A stretch of 25,530 nt of DNA from a virus. The number at the start of each line of letters is the position of its first letter. Within the stretch, counting starts at the first letter, position 1. Made by a program: the position numbers and the translations under genes. The notes beneath the pieces are model-generated. The model worked only from the letters and a program-made list of their open reading frames with translations. It had not been told where the DNA came from and ran no database searches. The stretch spans positions 1 to 25,530 of IMG/VR virus record IMGVR_UViG_3300023179_000465, one strand, 5' to 3'. Shown one piece after another: positions 13,871 to 24,995 of the stretch.

Positions 13871-13899
13871 TTGACCAGAAATGCCCAATCATCTATAAT
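13871..13899 (+). promoter_or_regulatory. Sigma70-type promoter for leaderless gene at 13906
   Basis: TTGACC (13871-13876), a 17-nt spacer and TATAAT (13894-13899) form a near-consensus promoter. Six bases (ACACAC) separate the -10 box from the ATG, so the expected +1 base is the A of the start codon. Confidence 0.75.
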
Positions 13900-13905
13900 A
13901 CACAC

Positions 13906-14181
13906 ATGAAGGTTATAAAGCTCAACCGCCGATACAAACTGTTTAAAGAGCAGGGCTATCGAGCCGGGCTGCGATTTGACTACTGGGACAATAATGCTCG
14001 CATTGTTGAACGCACTTGCCGTGAACGGTTGGGCCACAGTGGAATTACACCCCCTTCAGATTGGTATGGCTATTTTGGAAAAAGAGGCTGGACCAGCCCT
14101 ACCCCTTACTTTATCATGTTCCGTCGGGAATCAGACTTGAGTTTTGTGCTACTTTGTGCAGACTTGACCAAAAATGACTAA
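13906..14181 (+). CDS. Hypothetical 91-residue protein, predicted leaderless
   Basis: A small basic N-terminus (KVIKLNRRYKLFKEQGY) is followed by an aromatic-rich body (DWYGYFGKRGWTSPTPYF) and a hydrophobic strand (SDLSFVLLCADL). There is no signal peptide or membrane segment and I recognise no family. There is no Shine-Dalgarno; instead a strong promoter sits so close that the ATG is the predicted transcription start. It is divergent from the HNH gene, 53 nt away, and is followed by another gene with the same promoter spacing, so it is likely an early or middle, non-virion protein. Confidence 0.7.
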   Translation: MKVIKLNRRYKLFKEQGYRAGLRFDYWDNNARIVERTCRERLGHSGITPPSDWYGYFGKRGWTSPTPYFIMFRRESDLSFVLLCADLTKND

Positions 14182-14192
14182 CGTGCTATAAT
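14164..14192 (+). promoter_or_regulatory. Sigma70-type promoter for leaderless gene at 14199
   Basis: TTGACC (14164-14169), a 17-nt spacer and TATAAT (14187-14192) with an extended -10 TGC just before it. Six bases (TACAGT) separate the -10 box from the ATG at 14199. The -35 box lies in the last codons of the preceding gene, an arrangement otherwise identical to the promoter at 13871. Confidence 0.78.
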
Positions 14193-14198
14193 TACAGT

Positions 14199-15362
14199 AT
14201 GACAACCACTAAAGCAAAACCCATGGTCCTAGCTGCAAAAGCCAACGTCAAAGCACTAAACCCGCGTAGCCCGGATACCAAATATGTTGGGCACGAACCC
14301 GAGTGGCATGTGCAACCTGTGAGTAATCGTACCAGCAGCCTAAGCAATGCATTTGGGTGGTACAACTATTTCTACGGCAAGAAAGATGCCAAGGACTTTA
14401 TTGCATATTACTTGGATGCACACAATCGCAGCCGAGAAGCCAAGAAAATCCGTGCTCTGCCGGACAGCCAGATCCGCCTGACCACAGGTTGGTTGTGCCG
14501 CATGAGTACCATGGGGCTGGAACTCAACAAGCACGAGCAGGCCAAACTGGATGCTTTTATTCAGGAAGCATTGGTAGAACACGAGACCGACCTACCTGTA
14601 GCTGTGGCGGAAACCAAAGCAGCGGGGCCTTCTATTCAGGATCGACTGCGAGAAAAAGCCAGCGAAGCAGCTGGTGAACTGGAAGGGCTGTTTGATGAGT
14701 TTGTTGCAGCAGGTGCAAAGACGAGTGCGCAGTTTCAACCCATCACAATCATTCGTGGACACAATGTAGCACCACAACTGATCAGCCAAATACAACAACG
14801 TTGGAAACGCCATCTTGTAGAACTAGAAGCTGTGGTAGCAGGCAAAGATGCACAGTTGGTAGAAGGCTATGGCTATCTGACTAAAACTCAGCTGAAACAG
14901 TTGGTAAAGTTTGCTGAGCAAGTGGTCACAGACTGCAATAACTATGTACAGATCAAGAAAGTTGAACGTAAGCCACGTGCCAAGAAAGCAGTGAGCGCCG
15001 AAAAAGTCACGGCCAAATTCAAGTACCTTAAGACTTTTCCAGATCTTAAACTGGTATCAGAGCCTGCTGTGAAGCTGGTAGATGCAACAGAAGCATGGTT
15101 GTACGATACTGTGAAACGTAAACTGATCCATGTGGTTGGTGATGCGCATCGTGGTAACTTTACTGTAAAGAGTTCGGCTGTGGTCGGGTTCGATACCGGC
15201 ACAAGCTCGCAGAAAACACTGCGCAAGCCTGCAGAAACAATCAAAGCATTGATGTCAGCAGGCAAGCCGGCCACACGCAAGATCTTCAAAGAACTAACCA
15301 CAACCGAGACTCAATGGAACGGTCGTGGTAATGAGAATCTCATCATTCTCAAGGTGTGGTAA
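14199..15362 (+). CDS. Conserved-looking phage protein of unknown function, predicted leaderless
   Basis: A 387-residue protein. The N-terminus is a basic Ala-rich tail (MTTTKAKPMVLAAKANVKAL). The conserved-looking core (SNAFGWYNYFYGKKDAKDFI, then TTGWLCRMSTMGLELNKHE) resembles a protein I associate with marine T4-like phages, though I know no function for it. The middle (residues about 145-250) is predicted to be helical and possibly coiled coil (QDRLREKASEAAGELEGLF). The C-terminal half has Lys-rich strands (KKVERKPRAKKAVSAEK) and a domain ending NENLIILKVW. Expression is predicted from an adjacent promoter without a leader, so it is probably not a late gene. Its transcript would run on into the hairpin in front of gp13. 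Confidence 0.75.
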   Translation: MTTTKAKPMVLAAKANVKALNPRSPDTKYVGHEPEWHVQPVSNRTSSLSNAFGWYNYFYGKKDAKDFIAYYLDAHNRSREAKKIRALPDSQIRLTTGWLCRMSTMGLELNKHEQAKLDAFIQEALVEHETDLPVAVAETKAAGPSIQDRLREKASEAAGELEGLFDEFVAAGAKTSAQFQPITIIRGHNVAPQLISQIQQRWKRHLVELEAVVAGKDAQLVEGYGYLTKTQLKQLVKFAEQVVTDCNNYVQIKKVERKPRAKKAVSAEKVTAKFKYLKTFPDLKLVSEPAVKLVDATEAWLYDTVKRKLIHVVGDAHRGNFTVKSSAVVGFDTGTSSQKTLRKPAETIKALMSAGKPATRKIFKELTTTETQWNGRGNENLIILKVW

Positions 15363-15366
15363 CGGG

Positions 15367-15394
15367 CTAAATATCAGGGACGGAGTCCCTGATG
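15367..15394 (+). promoter_or_regulatory. Late promoter box overlapped by RBS-hiding hairpin, gp13
   Basis: A TAAATA box (15368-15373) is directly followed by an inverted repeat: ATCAGGGAC (15373-15381), loop GGA, then GTCCCTGAT (15385-15393), with an extra U.G pair possible at 15372/15394. The 3' arm contains the ATG (15392-15394), and the Shine-Dalgarno GGAG (15382-15385) spans the loop and first stem base. RNA reading through from upstream would fold and hide both. If the box acts like a T4 late promoter, RNA would start near 15379 and lack most of the 5' arm, leaving the site open. Confidence 0.7.
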
Positions 15395-16162
15395 CAAGAA
15401 CAACAACCCATAGACCTAGTAACACTCAAAAACAACTTGTTTGAGTATGTGCGCCTACAACTAGGACACCAGATCATTGATATTGAGCTGGATCCTGCAC
15501 ACTTTGAAGCTGCGTATCAAAAGACCATTGGCACTTACCGCCAACGTGCTAACAATGCATATGAAGAAAGCTACAGCTTTATGCAGTTGGTCAACCAGCA
15601 AAATATCTACACTTTGCCCCAGGAAGTGCAGAGCGTTAGACAGATTTTTAAACGTAGCTTTGGTATAGCATCTGGGCCATTTGGATCAAATTTTGATCCG
15701 TTCAGTCAAGCACAGATGAACGTGTATCTAATCAATTTTAACCAGAGTGGTGGCTTGGCCACCTACGATTTCTACAGTCAATATGTGGAACTAGCTGCTA
15801 GAATGTTTGGTGGATTCTTGAACTATACCTGGAATCCAGTTACTAAAAAGCTACAGCTAATCCGTAGTCCCCCTGGGGGAGGTGAAGTGGTGCTGCTGTG
15901 GACCTACAATCTCAAGCCAGAAATACAACTGTTGAGTGATTTCCAAATCCAACAATGGATTCGGGATTACATGGTTGCTGCCAGCAAGATGATCATTGGT
16001 GAAGCCCGAGAGAAATTTGGCACCATTGCAGGACCCCAAGGTGGTGGTACTCTAAACGGTGCTGCCATGAAAGGCGAAGCCAAAACTGAAATGGATGCGT
16101 TGATCACACAATTGGTGAATTATGTAGATGGCTCACAGCCATTAACCTTTGTGATTGGCTGA
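15392..16162 (+). CDS. 13: Neck protein, T4 gp13 family
   Basis: A 256-residue protein (T4 gp13 is 309). The opening LVTLKNNLFEYVRLQLGHQI, then IDIELDPAHFEAAYQKTIGTYRQRANNAYEESYSF is the gp13 pattern in T4-like phages, followed by QNIYTLPQEVQSVRQIFKR. gp13 with gp14 forms the neck that seals the portal after DNA packaging and accepts the tail. The C-terminal half has AARMFGGFLNYTW and a Gly-rich turn (AGPQGGGTLNGAAMKGEAK). Shine-Dalgarno GGAG lies 6 nt before the ATG, but within a strong hairpin. Unlike in T4, gp13 is not followed by 14 and 15, which sit about 2 kb away on the other strand. Confidence 0.85.
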   Translation: MQEQQPIDLVTLKNNLFEYVRLQLGHQIIDIELDPAHFEAAYQKTIGTYRQRANNAYEESYSFMQLVNQQNIYTLPQEVQSVRQIFKRSFGIASGPFGSNFDPFSQAQMNVYLINFNQSGGLATYDFYSQYVELAARMFGGFLNYTWNPVTKKLQLIRSPPGGGEVVLLWTYNLKPEIQLLSDFQIQQWIRDYMVAASKMIIGEAREKFGTIAGPQGGGTLNGAAMKGEAKTEMDALITQLVNYVDGSQPLTFVIG

Positions 16163-16177
16163 CATTTATGCTATAAT
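16149..16177 (+). promoter_or_regulatory. Sigma70-type extended -10 promoter for leaderless exonuclease gene
   Basis: TATAAT (16172-16177) is preceded by TGC (extended -10), with a weaker -35 TTGTGA (16149-16154) at 17-nt spacing. Six bases (CAGTAC) separate the -10 box from the ATG, the same distance as at 13906 and 14199. It probably drives the exonuclease, nucleotidase and dNMP kinase genes. Confidence 0.72.
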
Positions 16178-16183
16178 CAGTAC

Positions 16184-16705
16184 ATGGCTGATATTATGAT
16201 TGATATTGAAGGTCTTGCAACAGGCCCAGATGCTACTATTCTTACAATAGCGGCGCAAACTTTTGACCCATTAGGCAGTGGGTATTATCCACGACAATAT
16301 TATGCTCGAATAACATTAGAAAGCCAACCAGATCGAAAGATTGAACAGGGTACCATAGACTGGTGGGCAACTCAAAAAGAAGCTCAGGCAGAAGCATTTG
16401 CTGAAGATGGGCGTATCCCACTAGATCAGGCATTAAAAGAATTACACAAACTAACCTGGCAATGTAATAGAGTATGGATGAATGGACCCACTTACGATGC
16501 CAATATCTTAGAACACGCTTACAAAAGTTATGGAATGGGATTGCCATGGCAGTATTACAAAATTAGAGATACTAGGACCATTTACAGTTTATGGCCTGAC
16601 TTACCAAAACCATCCACAAGCCACCATGCATTACAAGATTGCCGACGACAGATTGATCTACTGCAAGCCACCCTTGAACACCTTAACATTGAAAGTTTAG
16701 TATGA
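16184..16705 (+). CDS. DEDDh-type 3'-5' exonuclease
   Basis: A 173-residue protein with the DEDDh exonuclease pattern: D7-x-E9 in IMIDIEGLATG, D105 in GPTYDANILEHAY, and H147/H148 with D152 in TSHHALQDCRRQ. These acidic residues bind two metal ions and trim DNA or RNA from 3' ends. The TIAAQTFDPLG and TIDWWATQ features fit the exonuclease VIII / Rv2179c-like branch found in many phages. It has no Shine-Dalgarno and a -10 box 6 nt upstream, so a leaderless mRNA is predicted. It overlaps the next gene as ATGA, forming a three-gene nucleotide and nucleic-acid operon. Confidence 0.85.
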   Translation: MADIMIDIEGLATGPDATILTIAAQTFDPLGSGYYPRQYYARITLESQPDRKIEQGTIDWWATQKEAQAEAFAEDGRIPLDQALKELHKLTWQCNRVWMNGPTYDANILEHAYKSYGMGLPWQYYKIRDTRTIYSLWPDLPKPSTSHHALQDCRRQIDLLQATLEHLNIESLV

Positions 16706-21706: not shown

Positions 21707-21735
21707 AAATGGGGTGGAAACACCCCATTTCTTTT
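21707..21735 (+). terminator. Rho-independent terminator after sheath gene
   Basis: AAATGGGGTG (21707-21716), tetraloop GAAA and CACCCCATTT (21721-21730) form a perfect 10-bp stem followed by CTTTT. The GNRA-type loop and 19-nt spacing from the sheath stop make this a clear terminator. Confidence 0.9.
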
Positions 21736-24401: not shown

Positions 24402-24995
24402 ATGTATTTACAAAACAAATACACTCGTTGGTATTATAACATTATACAACGAGCAAAATCAAGAAAGTCAACAACGGATGTTTACATTGAAAAACATCAC
24501 ATCGTTCCTCGAAGTTTAGGTGGAGATAATCAACAGGAAAACATTGTCTCGTTAACTGCAAAAGAACATTTCATCTGCCATATGCTGTTAGTTAAAATGA
24601 CCACTGGCAAATCTAAGCGTAGTATGGCATATGCCGCTTGGCAAATGACAAATATCGATTCTCGACAAAGATATAGCCCAACTTCACGCATATATTCATT
24701 GTTGAAGAAAAATCTATCCGAAACATACAAGGGTGTTCCAAAAACAAAAATACATTGGCTTGGTAAATCTCATTCAGCCCAGACAAAAACTTTACAATCA
24801 ACGATTAAAAAAAGTTCAAATAACCCCATGTGGGGTAAAAAGCACAAAGAAAAATCAAAAGAAACTATAAGCGAAAAACAAAAAGGAATTCCAAAACCTA
24901 AGTTTGTTTGTAGTAAATGCCAGGCGACCGTGGGCGGAATGAGCAACCTATTACGGTGGCACGAAGATAACTGTCCGTCTCAGACAATCCGGTAA
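24402..24995 (+). CDS. HNH homing endonuclease between gp4 and gp16
   Basis: A 197-residue HNH nuclease and paralogue of the one upstream of gp14. The N-terminus NKYTRWYYNIIQRA leads to H32-H33 (KHHIVPRSLGG), N47 and H56 (KEHFICH). The Lys-rich middle has a NUMOD-like segment (NNPMWGKKHKEKSKETIS), and the C-terminus has CSKC then RWHEDNC, a probable zinc-binding tail. The gene lies between gp4 and gp16, and its stop overlaps the late-type box of gp16. Such enzymes usually cut the gene next to them in phages that lack the insertion, so the target is probably in gp4, gp16 or gp17. Confidence 0.88.
   Translation: MYLQNKYTRWYYNIIQRAKSRKSTTDVYIEKHHIVPRSLGGDNQQENIVSLTAKEHFICHMLLVKMTTGKSKRSMAYAAWQMTNIDSRQRYSPTSRIYSLLKKNLSETYKGVPKTKIHWLGKSHSAQTKTLQSTIKKSSNNPMWGKKHKEKSKETISEKQKGIPKPKFVCSKCQATVGGMSNLLRWHEDNCPSQTIR

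Follow-up and report, generated by a model that had tools for sequence, protein, structure and literature searches.

In phage T4, the lysozyme gene e carries late promoters inside a hairpin at its ribosome-binding site (PMC3014915), and ribosome-binding-site hairpins have also been described for T4 soc, gene 49, I-TevI and segB and for Aeh1 mobE (PMC3014915, PMC2988022). In the latter group, a late gene is embedded in early or middle transcripts, and its ribosome-binding site is hidden when RNA reads through from upstream; none of these hairpins belongs to gp13 or to a jumbo phage. In the RaK2-like jumbo phages CBB and GAP32, the motif ATAAATA has been reported before structural genes, together with a gp55-like sigma factor; the passages on this motif concern promoters only and do not mention a hairpin gate (PMC5259590). 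We found no report of such a gate at gp13 or in jumbo phages in the open literature, subscription journals lying outside the scope of the search. Here, we analyze a 25,530-nt stretch of viral DNA (the window), in which the same box precedes the gene for the neck protein gp13 and overlaps an inverted repeat. The box, the stem and its covariation, an early-type promoter upstream, the computed loss of the fold in late RNA and the dependence on the neighboring gene together make it probable that the gp13 leader is an early/late translation gate of the T4 gene e type, composed of a late promoter and a hairpin.

The product of the gene in question (15392-16162, + strand; 256 aa) matched PHROG 211 (head-tail adaptor Ad2, T4 gp13) in a profile search with an E value of 9.7e-27 over residues 11-256, and the identification as gp13 in an earlier note on this DNA is thus well founded. 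The layout given in that note was also recovered. On the + strand, a late-promoter box of the T4 gp55 type, TAAATA (15368-15373), shares one base with the 5' arm ATCAGGGAC (15373-15381) of a perfect 9-bp stem, whose apical loop GGA (15382-15384) opens the Shine-Dalgarno sequence GGAG (15382-15385) and whose 3' arm GTCCCTGAT (15385-15393) contains the spacer and the first two bases, A and T, of the gp13 start codon ATG (15392-15394); the G, which had been placed in the arm as well, lies outside it. The stop codon TAA of the preceding gene is at 15360-15362 (+ strand). At the box, the window reads GCTAAATA, without the TA at the head of TATAAATA, and this was counted against the gate.

As in gene e, the late box occupies the 5' part of the hairpin, the start region is hidden, late RNA would be without the 5' arm, and the gene sits downstream of early genes. 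There are two differences: in gene e, the Shine-Dalgarno sequence is in the stem, whereas in the clade of the window, the apical loop consists of GGA and the stem holds the spacer and AUG; and the product of the putatively gated gene is a virion neck component rather than a lysis protein. In T4, gp13 belongs to a late operon, where it follows wac, and TAAATA is absent from its leader.

The gene in front of gp13 (14199-15362, + strand; 387 aa; PHROG 11903, function unknown) starts just behind an early-type sigma70 promoter, TTGACC-17-TATAAT with TG before the -10 element (14164-14192, + strand; 11/12 matches). Sigma70-type promoters are also present at the second gene in front of gp13 (13871-13899) and, as TTGTGA-17-TATAAT, at the exonuclease gene that follows (16149-16177, + strand), so gp13 is a virion gene amid early-type genes; behind it, the order is exonuclease, nucleotidase, dNMP kinase and then tail sheath and tube. 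As in T4-type switches, gp13 is codirectional with the upstream early-type promoter, and no terminator was called on the + strand from 14199 to 15392. As a separate observation, three window genes begin ~7 nt after TATAAT (13899-13906, 14192-14199 and 16177-16184) and are likely to be expressed from leaderless early mRNAs.

From this arrangement, we infer the late start site, promoter use, read-through, repression and timing as follows. Early in infection, RNA from the sigma70 promoter at 14164-14192 would read through the upstream gene into gp13 and fold the 9-bp hairpin, hiding the spacer and start codon, so that initiation at gp13 would fail. In the late phase, RNA polymerase carrying a gp55-type sigma factor would start at approximately 15378/15379, inside the 5' arm; the resulting RNA could not form the stem, its 5' end would lie ~4 nt from GGAG, and translation of gp13 would proceed.

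Folding in silico agrees with the earlier prediction that read-through RNA folds the hairpin: opening GGAG..AUG costs 15.1 kcal/mol on read-through RNA and 2.7 on RNA from 15379, and in the hairpin-forming RNA, the start is hidden, with an unpaired probability of 0-0.15 for the AUG and spacer. That late RNA would be without most of the 5' arm is likewise supported, the fold falling from -14.6 kcal/mol when RNA begins at the box to -0.6 from box+11, and RNA starting at box+10 to +13 retains at most about four stem pairs. Among relatives with the same neighboring gene (75 distinct leaders), the median fold is -9.9 from the box and -0.9 from box+11. The T4 controls behaved like the gp13 leader (gene e, from -14.9 on long RNA to -2.8/0 on late RNA; gene 49, from -12.9 to -1.4), which was counted in favor of the gate and is in line with the likeness to e, soc, 49 and I-TevI already drawn from the literature (PMC3014915; PMC2988022).

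An important question is whether TAAATA is a promoter in this phage group and where its RNA would begin. In three long relatives, TAAATA is found 10-40 nt before the starts of 52 of 393 genes, compared with ~8 for its reverse complement, and it thus appears, from sequence, to behave as the late promoter of the group. A gp55-type late sigma factor was found in three relatives (G002, G003 and G004) and in six cultured jumbo phages; none was found in the nearest long contig, G001, which is partial, and the window itself is a 25-kb fragment. The late genes of the three long relatives form two groups, with the ATG either 10-14 or 19-45 nt behind the box and with means of 2.3 and 4.0 Shine-Dalgarno matches, respectively; the short-spacing group comprises 50 genes without a Shine-Dalgarno sequence, none of which reaches 5/6 matches to AGGAGG. 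Since the ATG of these leaderless genes lies there, we infer that late RNA starts at about box+10 to +13, i.e., 15378-15381 (+ strand) in the window and most probably 15378/15379. This independent estimate coincides with the start near 15379 expected previously, and with the position of the box, it implies that late RNA would lose the 5' arm, most of which lies 5' of the start. Apart from the gp13 question, ~40% of the late-box genes in G001-G003 (50/127; L203-L228, L239-L254) carry TAAATA at a distance of only 10-14 nt from the ATG, lack a Shine-Dalgarno sequence and are apparently expressed from leaderless late mRNAs. The idea that leaderlessness is a second shield against read-through found no support, as a same-strand neighbor is present for 31/50 such genes versus 58/77 leadered ones (p 0.12, opposite direction).

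Could the inverted repeat be a chance product without function? Other perfect 9-bp stems do exist in the window, where stems of ≥9 bp with loops of 3-9 have 5 placements compared with a mean of 0.85 in composition-preserving shuffles; a stem somewhere in the window is unremarkable by itself, the count is weak proof, and the evidence beyond chance is comparative. No Rfam family matched the window at gathering score. Relatives of gp13 were collected by protein alone, so that the sample was not selected for the hairpin, and duplicates were removed. TAAATA was present upstream of gp13 in all 206 unbiased loci, at 21-30 nt before the ATG in 205 and at 11 nt in one. Loci from a scan for the pattern TAAATA-N7-ACGGAGTNCC were excluded from these counts because the pattern itself selects for the hairpin; nearly all true hairpins among its hits are at gp13, and the arms of the remaining hits do not match.

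The arms of the relatives differ in sequence yet remain complementary: CAGGGAC/GTCCCTG, CAGGAAC/GTTCCTG, TTGGGGAC/GTCCCCAA and TTGGGTAC/GTACCCAA, and in farther clades, pairs including AGGGAAC/GTTCCCT and AAGGGGGAAC/GTTCCCCCTT. Among nine distinct gap-free leaders, 92.6% of the stem cells pair (only 35-47% in slid registers), and two-sided changes occupy 10 cells versus 3.2 in shuffles, with 0/500 shuffles as high; when leaders whose stem has been lost are included as well (18 gap-free leaders in total), the values are 16 and 7.9. The stem covaries while the loop and box stay constant, so the comparison of upstream regions that the earlier note had proposed came out as it anticipated. Moreover, the covarying pairs include alignment columns 8 and 9, which lie 5' of the expected late start, and a longer RNA must therefore be under selection. 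At the sequence level, the box and the predicted hairpin before gp13 are thus conserved across hundreds of giant phages, and the stem is not a chance product: in view of the conservation and covariation seen across two architectures and hundreds of loci, the functionless reading can be practically dismissed.

The same data bear on two further explanations. One is that the repeat works as DNA, as the operator of a dimeric regulator or as a promoter part, which its shared base with the box might suggest. The arms, however, change freely in compensating pairs at a fixed position, a pattern that fits an RNA stem but not a recognition sequence, and such a repeat is generally absent from late-box genes (median fold z of about 0 to -1.6 in five genomes); we regard this explanation as very improbable. 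The other is that the hairpin is the site of a phage protein, autogenous or akin to a RegA/gp43 translational operator, acting on all gp13 messages. The loop CGGAG is strongly conserved among relatives, as such a site would be, but the conserved part is the Shine-Dalgarno sequence itself and the loops vary (GGA, TGGA, AGGA, ACGGA, ATGGA and even GAAA); moreover, enteric jumbo phages have an unrelated, much longer hairpin, and the stem could not form in RNA from the late box. A protein site is therefore unlikely.

A translation gate concerns read-through from the gene in front, and the nature of this gene is informative. TTGACC-17-TATAAT-type promoters precede it in most relatives; of 163 distinct upstream regions, 97 have TATAAT no more than 60 nt from the start, and none has TAAATA. 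The gene in front of gp13 is thus, judging by its promoter motifs, early-type and never has a late box. In 34 unbiased loci, another gene is inserted between it and gp13; in many of them, a TAAATA at the stop codon of the upstream gene precedes the insert by 10-14 nt, as it does in leaderless late genes. These loci have a weaker gp13 stem, with a median of -4.4 (30 distinct leaders) versus -9.9 (75; Mann-Whitney 8e-8). On the gp13 tree, the hairpin follows adjacency in 6.4 of 14 independent contrasts and opposes it in 0.3 (median p 0.031; 0.016 at a fold threshold of -8 and 0.0625 at -5, the loosest). Thus, the stem tends to decay where a gene separates the neighbors, the tree test being moderately significant. 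The earlier note would have given up the gate if relatives kept gp13 without the stem; such losses do occur, mostly where the front gene is separated or opposite, as the gate predicts, and the true exceptions are 7 of 75 distinct leaders that have no real stem next to the same neighbor. Conversely, L401, L188 and L088 retain a strong stem despite an inserted gene. The recurrent inserts between the PHROG 11903 gene and gp13 include radical-SAM-like genes (L293, L295, L350, L169, L088 and others), a label read from a CxxxCxxC motif in the sequence rather than from a profile test; other inserts occur too.

Translational coupling, in which ribosomes ending the upstream gene open the stem and gp13 depends on them, is to be weighed here. 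The first base of the upstream stop is close to the box, 0 nt (60 loci), 8 nt (80) or 9 nt (13) before it, and a distance of 0 nt would place a terminating ribosome over the 5' arm. In the window, by an estimate from known footprints, it would reach only the foot of the stem. Coupling also leaves unexplained that the 5' arm always has a late box at it or within it, that the upstream gene is of the early type, and that enteric jumbo phages show the same layout behind an entirely different upstream gene. We consider coupling improbable and retain the gate as the preferred reading.

The strongest additional evidence comes from the cultured RaK2-like jumbo phages, whose gp13 is 36-39% identical to that of the window. 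Their hairpin is longer and differently built yet equivalent, the late box either preceding the 5' arm or lying in it. In 15 of them (XaC1, XbC2, GAP32, CBB, Kaldavass, SNUABM_47, EJP2, Hallingskeid, PHA46, Munch, fENko-Kae01, 121Q, Muenster, K64-1 and RaK2), the gp13 leader folds at -17 to -24 (z -5.1 to -8.6) with the Shine-Dalgarno sequence in the 3' arm, and RNA from box+11 folds at only -4.2 to 0. The hairpins of GAP32 (CCCCTAAATATG...CATGTTTAGGGG) and Munch (GCACCCCTATAAATATTGTA...TACAATAATAGGGGTGC) enclose TAAATA and pair the Shine-Dalgarno sequence, and in this respect they are closer to the T4 soc/49/I-TevI form than the hairpin of the window is. Covariation was also seen in the cultured phages. 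In Atu_ph07, Phosso, Vibrio 2.275.O and SCTP-2, where the neighbor is on the opposite strand, no comparable fold of the gp13 leader was found (z -2.0 to +0.7); in PA5oct, the PHROG 11903 neighbor is kept and the fold is weak. Among filtered late-box leaders, gp13 has the strongest fold z in both GAP32 (-6.2; 68 box genes) and Munch (-7.0; 65). The z-filtered list was used for this ranking; an automatic 'switch-like' score over whole genomes was dropped as too lenient, ~35-40% of boxless genes passing its pairing part. A few other late genes of GAP32 and Munch, e.g., tail sheath, have the same layout.

There are thus two architectures, with the Shine-Dalgarno sequence in the loop in the aquatic clade and, in RaK2-like phages, in the 3' arm, the 5' arm then containing the box. 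Whether making the neck protein early does enough harm for jumbo phages to have built a gate in at least two unrelated architectures, coming and going with the orientation and identity of the front gene, is in our judgment an evenly balanced question. A gate at gp13 would bring giant phages, and a gene for virion assembly, into the range of a device known from a few genes of T4 and would give reason to seek a cost of premature neck-protein synthesis. The loci form a natural experiment, the putative gate tending to occur where read-through from an early gene would enter gp13 and to be weak or missing elsewhere, and GAP32, Munch, 121Q and RaK2 are cultured phages that allow direct tests. For phage Sharanji, the laboratory strain MG1655 is on record as a host.

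Several other leaders and intergenic features were noted. In tail sheath leaders of cultured jumbo phages (L474:4340, L475:4056, L472:4380, L479:3017), a hairpin, e.g., ATCCTCCAATAAATA...TTTTGGAGGAT, encloses the late box and pairs the Shine-Dalgarno sequence; the gene follows the dNMP kinase gene. At tail-fibre-like genes, a strong hairpin has TAAATA in or close to its loop, as in CTCTGG-TAAATA-CACCAGAGGA (G001 151050-153506, L228:11050; G002 335951-336649, L219:15951; G003 30372-32849, L240:10372). At a NifU-like Fe-S assembly gene (G001 89253-89627, L225:9253), the late box lies right before CCTTACAATAACTGTAAGG, which pairs an AAGG Shine-Dalgarno sequence. In the window, a terminator-like perfect 10-bp inverted repeat (21707-21730), AAATGGGGTG/CACCCCATTT, with a T-rich stretch behind it lies between the sheath and tube genes, and an HNH/NUMOD3 homing-endonuclease-like gene (24402-24995) sits between structural genes.
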